Source: Methanohalophilus halophilus (lineage in GTDB: Archaea; Halobacteriota; Methanosarcinia; Methanosarcinales; Methanosarcinaceae). Taken from it: DNA of 64,000 nucleotides. Below are positions 36,495 through 40,561 of the stretch, one piece after another. The position numbers and the translations under genes are program-made. The stretch is from NCBI RefSeq assembly GCF_001889405.1, contig NZ_CP017921.1, forward strand, positions 1,130,057-1,194,056. The letters are read 5' to 3'. Position 1 is the first letter of the stretch. Every line of letters begins with the position of its first letter. A model generated the notes under the pieces. It saw nothing but the letters and a program-made list of their open reading frames with translations, was not told the DNA's origin and did not search any database.

Positions 36495-37193
36495 ATGCGA
36501 CTTATTAATATGGGGTTAAAGGGAGAACAGGTACGTCTGGACTTTTTTGGCTGTAACCTTAAATGTCCCTATTGTATTCATATCAGGCAACCCTTTGAGG
36601 AATACAGTATAGACGAAGTTGCTGATTTTGTCAGCAATTCAGCTGTAAAGAAGGTTTTTATCGGAGGAGCCGAACCCACTCTCCAGAAGGAGTTAATCCC
36701 ATTGATTGAGCGGTTGCATTCAATGGGTATGGAGATTATTCTAAAGTCGGATGGCATGAAACCCGAAGTACTGGAGCAATCTCTTCGGTTTGTAAAAGGG
36801 TTTGTTCTGGAATTGAAGGCACCACTTGAAGATACGGCTGCAATTGAGGAACTTACGGGGCTTTCCTCCAAAAGGGTAGAACAATATGTTGCAAACCTCA
36901 AAACATCGATAGATATTGCTAAAACCAGATGGTTGCGACTCTGGGTTCGTGTAATTCCCGGTTATGTTACTGAAGAATCCGTGAAGAGGATGTTGCCTGT
37001 TATGGAAGGAGCTTGTGAGGTACTTCTTTATCAATTCTTAAGCAATCCCGATTTTGATCTTCCTTTTGCAGGATACACCTCGCCTGTGCCTGCATGGGAG
37101 GATATGGAAAGCCTTGCCAATATTGTTGTAGAAAAGGTGCCCCGTGTAATAATTGTGGGAGAAAAAGGGCGTAAGATAATTGTTAAGGAGTAA
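36495..37193 (+). CDS. Radical SAM protein, activase-like
   Basis: From ATG 36495 (GGTGGG 8 bases before) the protein has 232 residues with C20-N-L-K-C24-P-Y-C27 and I-G-G-A-E-P-T-L, as in small radical SAM activating enzymes related to pyruvate formate-lyase activase. No extra cluster cysteines are evident. Partner protein unknown. The frame extends upstream to 36453 but that would place the start in the leader. Confidence 0.8.
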   Translation: MRLINMGLKGEQVRLDFFGCNLKCPYCIHIRQPFEEYSIDEVADFVSNSAVKKVFIGGAEPTLQKELIPLIERLHSMGMEIILKSDGMKPEVLEQSLRFVKGFVLELKAPLEDTAAIEELTGLSSKRVEQYVANLKTSIDIAKTRWLRLWVRVIPGYVTEESVKRMLPVMEGACEVLLYQFLSNPDFDLPFAGYTSPVPAWEDMESLANIVVEKVPRVIIVGEKGRKIIVKE

Positions 37194-37206
37194 TTTTTAC
37201 AATCAG

Positions 37207-37292
37207 GTAATGAGCAAGGTATCGTAAAAAAAGCAGATTGGTGGTATGGTGGTGGTACGATATGAAAGCTGCTTTTCAGCCTTGCTCATTAC
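37207..37292. ncRNA. Candidate structured RNA A
   Basis: A perfect 13-bp outer stem pairs 37207-37219 (GTAATGAGCAAGG) with 37280-37292. Inside, 37220-37226 can pair with 37256-37262 (TATCGTA/TACGATA, contiguous with the outer stem) and 37263-37268 with 37272-37278. Alternatively 37229-37236 pairs with 37269-37276 (AAAAGCAG/CTGCTTTT). The loop holds GGTATGGTGGTGGTAC (37243-37258), identical to a segment at 62813-62828. It lies in a 252-base gap between a radical SAM gene and the DUF5611 gene. No U-run follows, so it is not an ordinary terminator. Confidence 0.5.
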
Positions 37293-37445
37293 AAATTGCT
37301 CTATGATATGAAGGTATTTAAATATTTTTCTTATATGTGAATGATTATATCTTATTTATTTGTTTTTTATGCGGTTCAAATTCAGATAATTTTCTTAGAC
37401 CAAAACATTTATCCATGTCTGCCGGTATGTAATTAATCGATTGAC

Positions 37446-37757
37446 ATGCAGGAATACAAATTAAAACGTGGTCATTCCCCTGATATTGAACGTATCTATG
37501 AAGCGCTTGAGGAATGTTTCCCTTCCGATATATCAAGGCAAGGAGATAAATTAGTTACTTCATACGGTGTTATGAAGGAACTTTCTGTGTGGCTGAACGG
37601 CAAAAAACTTGCAGTTGACACGAATTCTGAAGCTGAAGGCGTCTCTGATGAGGTCATTCTTGATACCAACAAGAGGTTTCGCGATTTTCTCTATAAGGCT
37701 ACTGGTTACACTGCCAAGGAACGAGTTAAGAACGCCAAAAAGGCAGTTTCCAAATAA
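37446..37757 (+). CDS. DUF5611 family protein
   Basis: The 103-residue protein (MQEYKLKRGHSPDIERI) resembles DUF5611, a small family of methanogens with unknown function. It has a basic lysine-rich C-terminus. No Shine-Dalgarno is visible before the ATG; the TATA-like CATTTAT near 37407 would give a very short leader. The chorismate lyase-like gene follows after 11 bases, so they may form an operon. Confidence 0.65.
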   Translation: MQEYKLKRGHSPDIERIYEALEECFPSDISRQGDKLVTSYGVMKELSVWLNGKKLAVDTNSEAEGVSDEVILDTNKRFRDFLYKATGYTAKERVKNAKKAVSK

Positions 37758-37768
37758 TAGGATCATAC

Positions 37769-38287
37769 GTGTTTGTCAATCGCGACTTTCTCAAGGATCT
37801 CAAGACTTTTGAGATTCCCACATGCCTGCGTGTCTGTGCAGGCACCGATGGTTCTGTAACCTTCCTGCTGGAGATTATGACACGCCACGAAGTTGAGGTA
37901 ATTACCGAGGATCAACATCTAGTTAAAGCCGATGAGGAAATGGCCAGGCTTTTGGATGTGGATGTTGGCGAAGAAGTGAATCATCGCACCGTGCGATTGG
38001 TGGCGGATGGTGTCCCTTATGTTCATGCGGTTTCCCTCTCTCCGATTGGCCGTATGCCAGAAGAGGTTCGCAGGGATATGATGCGTGCCGATATACCCAT
38101 TGGTAAGATTCTGCGTAATTACGGCATGGAAACCCGCAGGGACTTTGACACTATACAGATGGAGACTGACGGTTCTCTTTTTGGCAGTCGTGAATATCTC
38201 TCAAGGACCTATCGTATTGTGCATCACAATGATGCGCTCATGTGGATCAAAGAACGCTTCCCTGCAGATGGTCGCTGGTTGCTCTGA
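37769..38287 (+). CDS. Chorismate pyruvate-lyase family protein (DUF98)
   Basis: The 172-residue protein has the fold-family pattern of archaeal DUF98 chorismate lyases, related to UTRA/UbiC: L-R-V-C-A-G-T-D-G-S-V-T, N-H-R-T-V-R-L and R-T-Y-R-I-V. If active it would release 4-hydroxybenzoate, a precursor of methanopterin in methanogens. The start is GTG 37769; an ATG alternative is absent nearby. Confidence 0.7.
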   Translation: MFVNRDFLKDLKTFEIPTCLRVCAGTDGSVTFLLEIMTRHEVEVITEDQHLVKADEEMARLLDVDVGEEVNHRTVRLVADGVPYVHAVSLSPIGRMPEEVRRDMMRADIPIGKILRNYGMETRRDFDTIQMETDGSLFGSREYLSRTYRIVHHNDALMWIKERFPADGRWLL

Positions 38288-38357
38288 ACCGAATCCGGAA
38301 AACCGAAAACTTATTATGGTATCACTCCTATTGAGGGGTCGCAGTCAAGAAAAGCGT

Positions 38358-38429
38358 GCCTCGGTGGCTTAGGGGTGTAGTGCGTCCTTGGTAAGGACGA
38401 GGTCGCGGGTTCGAATCCCGCCCGAGGCT
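38358..38429 (+). tRNA. tRNA-Thr (GGT)
   Basis: Acceptor GCCTCGG (38358-38364) pairs with CCGAGGC (38422-38428); discriminator T. The anticodon arm CGTCC-TTGGTAA-GGACG gives anticodon GGT (threonine, codon ACC). The T arm CGGGTTCGAATCCCG is intact. No intron; CCA is not encoded. Confidence 0.95.
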
Positions 38430-38526
38430 TTCTATTTTCAGACCAATATTCATTTTGACATATTGTCCACTGAGATTTTTATGGATATATCAAATTCATA
38501 ATATACTTCTACATGATAATCTTTTT

Positions 38527-38548
38527 TTGAGCATGCTCAATTATATAT
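38527..38548 (+). promoter_or_regulatory. 14-bp palindrome joined to TATA box of the small zinc-ribbon gene
   Basis: TTGAGCATGCTCAA (38527-38540) is a perfect palindrome and is followed without gap by TTATATAT (38541-38548). A transcript would start near 38573 and carry the GGAGGTGA ribosome site. The palindrome occupies the BRE/operator position. Confidence 0.5.
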
Positions 38549-38600
38549 CCATTGTCTCCCAAGCTTTTAGACGTACATAATTTGTGGGAGGTGAATGGAA

Positions 38601-38723
38601 ATGGTAAAATGTGGAGTTTGTGGTGGTGATGCACCAAGACAACCAAATGTCACAGAAGATGGGAAATGTGACCTTTGTGGAAAGAAGTTTGTTCTTGAAG
38701 AAGAAAAGAAGCAGAAGGACTGA
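38601..38723 (+). CDS. 40-residue zinc-ribbon protein
   Basis: ATG 38601 gives MVKCGVCGGDAPRQPNV and a stop at 38721-38723. Cysteines at 4, 7, 23 and 26 (two CxxC pairs) would bind one zinc, and the tail is Glu/Lys-rich. GGGAGGTGA ends 6 bases before the start; the in-frame ATG at 38595 touches that site and is less likely. A clear TATA box, palindrome and terminator show it is a free-standing gene despite its size. Function unknown. Confidence 0.8.
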   Translation: MVKCGVCGGDAPRQPNVTEDGKCDLCGKKFVLEEEKKQKD

Positions 38724-38728
38724 ATGGG

Positions 38729-38754
38729 ATATAAGTTCTTGGACTTATATTTTT
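38729..38754 (+). terminator. Hairpin terminator of the small zinc-ribbon gene
   Basis: ATATAAGT (38729-38736) pairs with ACTTATAT (38743-38750), then TTTT follows. It starts five bases after the stop codon. Confidence 0.65.
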
Positions 38755-38768
38755 AAGAATAAACCCAC

Positions 38769-38831
38769 ATGAATCAGGGAAAGCAAGAATGCCAAAAAGG
38801 ATTGAGGGTTAAGTTTACTTCCCTGATTCAT
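38769..38831. repeat. 13-bp perfect inverted repeat with 37-base loop
   Basis: ATGAATCAGGGAA (38769-38781) and its exact complement (38819-38831) bracket a loop lacking a further strong stem. It lies between the terminator of the zinc-ribbon gene and a decayed gene. It may be an RNA hairpin or a remnant end of a mobile element; no matching element is visible. Confidence 0.45.
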
Positions 38832-38936
38832 TGCTCATTTACTTAGATCTCATTTCATCAAATCCTTTTTCACCCGGATAAGCAAGTTGAATATGTATGA
38901 CTTTTTGGTTTCACTCTTATAAAGAATCAGATTGAT

Positions 38937-39290
38937 TCATTTGGTGACTGTGATGTTATATTTTGTTAGATCAAAGTGTTGCGGAGGGATAGTTGCATTC
39001 TTTAATCTATCTCTTACTTCATTGTATATCGATTCGGCTTTATTACTTAGAAATAAGTTTTGGAATATTTCAAAACCATCGTCCTCTTTTGGATTGAGCA
39101 GACCTGTATAATTGAATTTGTCAAAGAGGTAGTTTATAAGACCTTCCAGATTCTTCAGCGTCCTTCAGGATACAAGGAAACCTCTGCCCCACTGCTCTAT
39201 CAGGTCAAGTTCCCTGAAAACTCTGGCAATAACACGATTCCTGATCCTTGATACACTCTGCTTGACATCTAGAAGATGGGATAATTAGCT
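38937..39290 (-). pseudogene. Decayed remnant of an AlbA_2-type transcriptional regulator/ATP-binding protein
   Basis: On the complement, H-L-L-D-V-K-Q-S-V-S-R-I-R-N-R-V-I-A-R-V is followed by F-R-E-L-D-L-I-E-Q-W-G-R-G-F. This matches the C-terminal part of Schlafen AlbA_2-domain regulators (…R-N-P-x-I-A-x-V-F-R-E-L-G-x-I-E-x-W-G-S-G). A TGA interrupts the frame right after it. Beyond the stop the same frame stays open for about 77 more codons to the TGA at 38937-38939. There is no start or N-terminal domain. An overlapping plus-strand frame (39060-39251) is a shadow of this. Confidence 0.5.
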
Positions 39291-39357
39291 GAATGTTAAT
39301 TTGATGCAAAATACCACAAAAAATATAGTTGATAATGGTTGCATATTATTGATTGCT

Positions 39358-39702
39358 ATGTCTGATGAGGATCTGAAGAAAAGAAAAGAGGAATGGCTTG
39401 CCAAAGTCAGAAAAGAAGGTAAACTCAACCGCAACCCAACTGAAGATCACAGCACCGGGCTAAAAACACTTCAGAATAACATCCGCAGAAGAATACTATC
39501 TCTTTTACTGGAATCCCCCATGAGTTTAGAGAATTTGCAAAATGAAATGGAACTGAACAAAATGGAGGCCAAGTTCCATATAGGAATGTTAGAAAATGCC
39601 CTTTACGTTGAGAAAGAGGAAAGGAACGGAATAATCGTATATTGTGCTTCTCCCCGGGCAGAAGCATATATGGAAAATGTAAAAAGTGGAGGACATAAAT
39701 GA
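39358..39702 (+). CDS. ArsR-like winged-helix transcriptional regulator
   Basis: From ATG 39358 (MSDEDLKKRKEEWL) the protein has 114 residues: a charged helix, then a winged helix (N-N-I-R-R-R-I-L-S-L-L-L-E-S-P-M-S-L-E-N-L and a recognition helix, Y-V-E-K-E-E-R-N-G wing). No Shine-Dalgarno is clear; an ATG at 39304 would add a hydrophobic leader and is less likely. It overlaps the AhpD-like gene by ATGA, so it probably regulates or is sensed with it. Confidence 0.7.
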   Translation: MSDEDLKKRKEEWLAKVRKEGKLNRNPTEDHSTGLKTLQNNIRRRILSLLLESPMSLENLQNEMELNKMEAKFHIGMLENALYVEKEERNGIIVYCASPRAEAYMENVKSGGHK

Positions 39703-39965
39703 CTATTTCTATGGATGACAAAGAGTCGAACTGGGAAAAGGATTTCTCAAACTTAAAGGATACCATCATGCAGGATGGTGCTATCGATAATAAAACTAAA
39801 AAACTGCTGGCTCTTGCAAGTGCTGTGGCGGTGGGATGTGATGAATGTGTATCCCATCACAAAAAATTTGCTCGCAATGCAGGTTTAAAAGATTCCGAAA
39901 TCGAAGAAGCAATTTTAGTAGCATCACTGATTCGTATGGGATCAGGACTGCGACATGTTGACTAA
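39699..39965 (+). CDS. AhpD-like carboxymuconolactone decarboxylase family protein
   Basis: The 88-residue protein has the active site A-V-G-C-D-E-C-V-S-H-H (CxxC followed by His), which in AhpD-like proteins gives peroxidase or disulfide reductase activity. GTGGAGG precedes ATG 39699. Coupling with the upstream ArsR-like gene suggests a redox-responsive pair; a start at 39711 is also possible. Confidence 0.8.
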   Translation: MTISMDDKESNWEKDFSNLKDTIMQDGAIDNKTKKLLALASAVAVGCDECVSHHKKFARNAGLKDSEIEEAILVASLIRMGSGLRHVD

Positions 39966-40561
39966 AAAGGAAAAATAAATTAAGACTATTTTATACAGAA
40001 AGGTATTCTAAAGAGGGGGGACTTATAGTTCCCCTAATGCATTTATCGGATTTTTGGGAGCTCTAAATGGAAAACTAGTATGAGTGAAAATCATATATTA
40101 TTGCCCTGATCTTCCACTCGAAAACATCTCAAATTTGTAATTTATGAAGGAATTTGTTGTAATAATTCTACATAATACAATCTTCAGCAAACATTCTCGC
40201 CTAAGTGCCTTCCCCTTTACAGGCATACCCATGTTTTCCATACTCTACTATCATCTACGATGCGTAGCATCGTATGTACGTATACATCTAGCAACTGTAA
40301 AAAGATTAGGAAATAATCGCAGGACAAAAATTGATTATGGGTCATTTGGCCTGCAGGTACTTTGAGAAACAAGGACGTCACTATTCTTAAATCATATAAT
40401 ATCAAGTATATTCATGAGATAATACTCAACGATGTAACGCAGCATTCATTTACGTTAAAGTTGATGATTCTACCATTAGAAATTCGGGAATTTGCAAAGA
40501 ATTCTAATTCAAAAATTGCCAGGTGCAGAATATTCCAATTAAATATCAATCAGGATGTATC
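39966..40561. other. Gene-poor AT-rich interval
   Basis: No frame here resembles a known protein on either strand. GGGGA (40017-40021)/TCCCC near 40030 could terminate the AhpD-like transcript. TACGATGC-GTA-GCATCGTA at 40256-40274 is a perfect 8-bp hairpin. The rest is unassigned and may be decayed coding sequence. Confidence 0.4.

Follow-up and report, generated by a model that had tools for sequence, protein, structure and literature searches.

A 40-residue four-cysteine microprotein of Methanohalophilus halophilus and its relatives in Methanosarcinaceae and Desulfobacterota

Deletion of zinc-finger microproteins in Haloferax gave phenotypes in 12 of 16 cases, according to PMC6562870. C(P)XCG microproteins may be metal-free or bind another metal, and the class as presented in PMC11241148 includes members without zinc. 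In Methanosarcina mazei, sORF_06 is described as a stand-alone, formerly unannotated small protein with four conserved cysteines, which was detected as a whole protein by top-down proteomics and whose overexpression led to an earlier stationary phase under nitrogen limitation (PMC11456600). The same report gives its cysteines as present in disulphides, not metal-bound, mentions iron-sulfur clusters, and assigns the protein to Methanosarcina and, less confidently, to Methanosarcinaceae (PMC11456600).

The gene examined here, that of the microprotein MVKCGVCGGDAPRQPNVTEDGKCDLCGKKFVLEEEKKQKD, lies on the forward strand at 38601..38723 of the window, by which we mean the whole 64,000-nucleotide stretch of Methanohalophilus halophilus DNA that was analyzed. 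Its frame runs from an ATG at 38601 to a stop at 38721-38723 and encodes 40 amino acids, within the limit of fewer than 70 residues set for C(P)XCG microproteins. The two CxxCG motifs that mark this class are also present, as CGVCG and CDLCG at residues 4-8 and 23-27, respectively, giving the spacing C-x2-C-x15-C-x2-C; in some homologues, H and not G follows the last Cys. A strong ribosome binding site, GGAGGTGA (38587..38594, forward strand), ends 6 nt upstream of the ATG, and its GGAGGTG is kept in the orthologues of two congeners (G003 and G007) as well as in a paralogue. A second in-frame ATG stands upstream at 38595, touching the ribosome binding site; homologues start with MVKC, MPKC, MAKC, or MEKC, i.e., with Met three residues ahead of the first Cys, so 40 amino acids is the right length. 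An earlier note on this DNA had described a real four-cysteine gene of 40 residues, of a kind often missed, and all of its letter-level features were found in place. With a conserved frame, purifying selection, and a wide family behind it, the frame is, on sequence grounds, a real gene, far beyond chance, and the note is borne out on each of these points.

The earlier note had made the gene depend on conservation of the frame in close relatives, and both congeners with a copy keep it (G003 and G007, with identities of 100% and 98%). Over 34 codons, there were no changes relative to G003, two synonymous and no amino-acid changes relative to G007, four synonymous and three amino-acid changes relative to the paralogue, and 11 synonymous and three amino-acid changes relative to G012, from another genus; judged by these codon changes, the gene is under purifying selection. 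The paralogue, an intact second copy in the same genome with 85% identity (L086:8406-8522; G000:C1:784405-784521), has gat genes on one side and, on the other, a gene whose product is a YHS plus FrhB-like protein. The search for four-cysteine homologues that had been proposed revealed a family in Methanosarcinaceae and Desulfobacterota. A profile built from eight members gave 42 raw matches; four weak ones were dropped (G049, G050, G053, and G054, with 13 residues matched within 117-aa frames, which is chance-like), leaving matches in 38 of 111 family genomes, a count that includes the own genome and retains the partial matches in G076, G107, and G110. A phylum sample yielded matches in 30 of 392 genomes, four of them outside the family. 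Within the genus the gene is accessory: the profile search found a copy in three of eight genomes, own included, and none in the other five. Eight positions (M1, K3, C4, C7, P15, G21, C23, and C26) were invariant in 17 chosen members.

No Pfam or NCBIfam model scored above its cut-off for the members tested, and the family has therefore probably been overlooked in annotation. The AlphaFold model was moderate (mean pLDDT of 77.8, pTM of 0.46) and had no significant PDB fold match, which says little given so short a protein. The reading that we favor, and that in its broad form we hold to be moderately probable, is that of a one-domain zinc-finger microprotein that serves redox or stress adaptation by way of a protein partner. 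Such a microprotein would be a stand-alone gene, presumably transcribed singly, of a family common to Methanosarcinaceae and some Desulfobacterota; its two CxxCG knuckles would fold so that the four cysteines bind a single metal ion, zinc being the most likely, and the putatively cytoplasmic protein would probably act by binding a larger partner.

The setting of the bacterial homologues gives a lead to regulation that is clearer than expected, as the microprotein gene clusters there with a candidate operator and a gene for a regulator, frequently also with one for a flavoprotein. Scanning genome contigs returned 25 loci, four of them from Desulfobacterota at 75% identity over 32 residues; six of 395 genomes matched in a Desulfobacterota phylum sample, and the microprotein was present in 11 of the 55 genomes from the class of G450. 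At eight bacterial loci, a dyad, TGTAG-N6-CTACA, was observed 87 to 99 bases ahead of the start codon. In Eth-SRB2 it lies 785 bases upstream, with an FMN reductase gene between it and the microprotein; one-mismatch forms of TGTAGC-N4-GCTACA were seen in L095 at -783, again in front of the cluster, in L097 at -88, and in L098 at -90. Allowing up to one mismatch, TGTAGC-N4-GCTACA precedes the gene or its cluster in 12 of 13 bacterial loci, a count that includes three decayed copies with cysteines lost or a stop gained (L097, L098, and L102), L102 being the sole locus without it. The MEKC-type bacterial copies L092 and L093, which fall outside these 13 loci, have no dyad. In seven of nine genomes, chosen for having the dyad, the perfect form (the only one counted genome-wide) occurs once and always at the microprotein locus; in the remaining two genomes the dyad differs by one mismatch. 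A reversed control was found zero to two times per genome, six times in the nine genomes, so that it is the position of the dyad and not its count that serves as evidence. Literature searches for the dyad halves and for the cluster returned nothing relevant, and a text search with peptide strings found no mention, most subscription literature lying outside these searches.

A CRP/FNR-type regulator was found in 11 of the 55 class genomes, nine of which also have the microprotein, with two genomes carrying the microprotein alone and two the regulator alone (cut-offs of E up to 1e-60 for the regulator and 1e-10 for the microprotein; Fisher p of 4e-7 for co-occurrence, relatedness ignored). In all nine co-occurring genomes the two genes are 56 to 1499 bp apart. 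Pfam confirmed cNMP_binding plus HTH_Crp_2 in three of three regulators tested, and a CxC plus a further Cys was present at the regulator N-terminus in the six loci where the search pattern found it. The microprotein gene and its CRP/FNR-type neighbor alike look damaged in G667 and G882, which would fit a shared function, although this may reflect assembly error. In six of the 13 bacterial loci, the gene has near it one for an FMN reductase that carries a cysteine motif and that we take to be of the iron-sulfur flavoprotein type, as counted by a sequence pattern that covered about 1.5 kb on each side and may miss some; FMN_red was confirmed by Pfam in three of three flavoproteins tested.

These neighbors also bear on a rival reading, in which the microprotein is a rubredoxin-like electron carrier whose knuckles hold iron and, in bacteria, receive electrons from the neighboring FMN reductase. 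Rubredoxin, too, is built of CxxCG pairs, and PMC11241148 names it among C(P)XCG proteins as one with iron; the FMN reductase near the gene also speaks for this reading. However, for the four members tested, the Pfam hits listed to an E of 1 included no rubredoxin or desulforedoxin, PDB searches by sequence and by fold returned no match to either, and inspection by eye recognized no flavoprotein beside the listed archaeal loci, so that we regard an electron carrier as unlikely.

A bolder form of the favored reading would join the two domains. A 40-residue metal-knuckle protein would be exchanged between Methanosarcinaceae and sulfate-reducing Desulfobacterota as a redox module. In the bacteria, a dedicated CRP/FNR-type regulator would have it as its principal or sole target, and it would act together with an iron-sulfur flavoprotein; this reading we consider possible but doubtful. 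In a tree of 34 codons, four of six bacterial sequences fell near Methanosarcina and the two MEKC-type ones elsewhere, and so few codons give a tree too weak for dating a transfer. Neither the window nor any of the 56 archaeal loci scanned (with duplicates counted) has the bacterial dyad; in the window, the closest match to TGTAGC-N4-GCTACA within 38201-38650 has five mismatches. Bacterial regulation therefore need not hold in archaea.

Among Methanosarcina loci, a divergent winged-helix gene encoding several cysteines, with HTH_5 above its Pfam cut-off, lies upstream of the microprotein in 24 clustered loci that represent 15 distinct places; L017, L041, and L046 are among the Methanosarcina copies outside this cluster. 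A second rival has the microprotein bind and tune its neighboring regulator, the CRP/FNR type in bacteria and the cysteine-bearing winged helix in Methanosarcina, and so exert feedback on its own promoter. That a regulator adjoins the gene in two domains, including every co-occurring bacterial genome, argues for it. Against it, the window locus is without a divergent winged-helix regulator, in G094 the microprotein and winged-helix genes are 1.27 Mb apart, and the winged-helix family is present in 81 of 111 genomes, far more widely than the microprotein, so that the link is a local one. We judge a regulatory partner of this kind to be as improbable as the electron carrier.

For the microprotein that we favor, acting in redox or stress adaptation, the archaeal neighborhoods, picked by reading with no control set, provide hints only. 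A catalase gene lies near L037 and a rubrerythrin gene near L056, a CMD-like neighbor at L049 falls just below its cut-off, and in the window a CMD protein is encoded near the microprotein gene at 39699-39965. The Methanosarcina promoters share a block, TGNNGATTAARTATAWA, which occurs one to four times per genome in all 15 Methanosarcina-group genomes searched, chosen for having the microprotein, with at least one occurrence before the microprotein; it was found in none of three Methanohalophilus-type genomes, and a reversed control occurred zero to one times. We rejected this block as a dedicated microprotein promoter because it also precedes other genes. As noted for L110-L125, the block TGCCGATTAAGTATATATCAATAAC of Methanosarcina microprotein genes recurs elsewhere: in seven of 17 loci read it is followed by a long leader and then an 'MPHIME..GKARVVVKDGKVVEVG' gene, and in two it stands ahead of an 'ELTE..LKEMALTLGAFK' gene. 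Its recurrence may reflect either a small regulon or one strong core promoter that several genes share. Separately, inverted repeats of the form GGCAT..ATGCC or GAGGCA..TGCCTC were seen between the TATA box and the start codon of several Methanosarcina members (L019-L023, L006, and L028).

The window gene has an archaeal-type TATA box, TTATATAT (38541..38548, forward strand), whose ATATATC recurs unchanged before both orthologues and before the paralogue, and transcription would be expected to start about 25 nt 3' of it. A 14-bp palindrome, TTGAGCATGCTCAA (38527..38540), abuts this box and had been read by the earlier note as the gene's own operator, to be checked by its conservation before homologues and suggestive of autoregulation or a response to metal or redox state. 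At the same site the relatives have TTGAGCATGCTTAA (G003), TTGAGGATGATCAA (G007), and TTAATGATGCTCAA (paralogue); across these three there are six substitutions, each of which breaks a pair and none of which is compensated, leaving the dyad perfect solely in its own genome among the four copies compared. The exact 14-mer occurs once in the genome, a single contig of 2,022,959 bases. The window contains 10 perfect palindromes of at least 14 bp, above all of 30 first-order Markov sequences (mean of 5.2, range of 1 to 9), and since such palindromes are not rare here, this one is by itself weak evidence. TTAA or TCAA, corresponding to the right arm, stands ahead of the TATA box in all four promoters of the window's group and in 17 of 18 aligned Methanosarcina-type promoters (L041 differs); the left arm varies among the aligned promoters, and six promoters of a third group have neither arm. 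Rows chosen by a pattern that itself requires the right arm were left out of the evidence. We read the right arm as core promoter rather than as half of an operator, and the right half of the palindrome presumably overlaps the position expected of a BRE.

On these grounds, namely the uncompensated breaks in both orthologues and the paralogue and the frequency of palindromes in the window, we did not accept the palindrome as an operator. It could yet be the true operator of a metal or redox repressor for which an imperfect dyad suffices. The palindrome adjoins the TATA box, its outer TTGA...TCAA arms are kept in the same register in G007 and, with one change each, in G003 and the paralogue, and matches with up to two mismatches occur at 11 other places in the genome, relative to one for a reversed control that has more CG steps and is thus an unfair comparison. 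Set against the substitutions, the other long palindromes, and a right arm placed where a BRE would be, this makes a tolerant repressor somewhat less likely still than the two rivals above. Of the redox regulation supposed by the earlier note, what survives is indirect support, from the different dyad of the bacterial homologues.

Five bases past the stop, an A/U-rich inverted repeat (38729..38750, forward strand) with 8-bp arms, ATATAAGT (38729-38736) and ACTTATAT (38743-38750), and a 6-nt loop is followed by T4 and may be a 3' end signal. Folded alone (33 nt), this hairpin had a z of -3.7 against shuffles, with one of 200 as good; with flanks, z was -1.9 and 11 of 200 were as good. The hairpin is identical in G003 and kept in G007 except for one A-U changed to G-U, and in G007 a short piece of equal length gave a z of -4.0 with none of 200 shuffles as good. 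On longer pieces, G003 reached a z of -2.0, and G007 favored another fold (z of -1.1). The paralogue lacks the window hairpin and has a different, weaker one instead. A scan for intrinsic terminators in 37500-39800 listed none (2.0 expected in shuffles), as would be expected: the stem is A/U-rich, not the G+C-rich stem before a T run that defines such terminators, and the scan demands G-C pairs. As the orthologue DNA is close overall, conservation of the hairpin argues only modestly for a 3' end signal. What had been called a hairpin terminator is thus likely, from its retention with the T run in both orthologues, a conserved 3' structure but not a textbook terminator.

Upstream of the gene, and relevant here as context only, lies a tRNA-Thr (GGT; 38358..38429, forward strand), and no other known RNA was found in 37000-40500. 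Across the genus, insertions at the 3' end of this tRNA vary (loci L078-L085): in the five genomes in which no copy of the microprotein was found, similarity to the window ends within about ten bases of the tRNA end. In G003, about 27 kb separate the tRNA from the microprotein gene, beginning with a phage-type integrase gene (Pfam PF00589) and having a short repeat of the tRNA end at the far side; G004 has DNA similar to this integrase region after the tRNA, without a long frame. By eye, G001 and G004 have CRISPR-associated-looking genes after the tRNA, and G002, G005, and G006 have other genes at this spot. We rejected cargo of a mobile element as an explanation of the family: a Methanosarcina-type member (not the window's protein) had no tblastn match in plasmids or phages, and viral contigs gave no match in one scan and one distant match in another. 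The latter, L099, is a relative with 53% identity over residues 3-36 on a 124-kb viral contig. That the frame is spurious, or decaying cargo of this variable spot, might be suggested by the failure to find it in five of the eight genus genomes searched and by the integrase-bearing insert of G003, but it is contradicted by purifying selection, wide conservation, and an intact second copy away from tRNA-Thr, and is hardly credible.

To our knowledge, a partner or signal has been established for few zinc-finger microproteins of archaea. The family offers a lead to one, with its apparent operator, its regulator, and often a flavoprotein clustered in the bacteria and a stand-alone gene in a methanogen group that has genetics (Methanosarcina). 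Should the exchange of a redox module between the two domains prove true, the microprotein would itself be an effector or co-sensor of the response.

Compared with described systems, the microprotein shares with the haloarchaeal HVO_2753, HVO_0758, and Brz a length below 70 residues, two CxxCG motifs, and the lack of a larger domain, as far as these are described in PMC11241148, PMC6562870, and PMC2253796. The likeness is one of size and motifs. The microprotein has no proline in its CxxCG motifs; unlike those proteins, it occurs in methanogens and Desulfobacterota, and its bacterial members lie beside a candidate operator and a regulator. The Rpo12 (RPB12-like) zinc ribbon of archaeal RNA polymerase is of similar size and CxxC spacing, but its match to the microprotein is not significant (phmmer E of 0.037), and C2H2 fingers score alike. 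MtrI of M. mazei is likewise a small methanogen protein with a zinc-binding ribbon of four cysteines and a link to oxygen exposure, but it is described as 68 aa long, with four helices and a 15-residue ribbon (PMC12774963), whereas C4 to C26 of the microprotein span 23 of 40 residues; MtrI was not among the 20 PDB sequence matches of the microprotein. Finally, sORF_06 is a stand-alone protein with four cysteines like the one described here, while most of the Methanosarcina homologues that we found have five. Going by its description in PMC11456600, with which the comparison was made rather than with its sequence, the microprotein probably belongs to the sORF_06 family.
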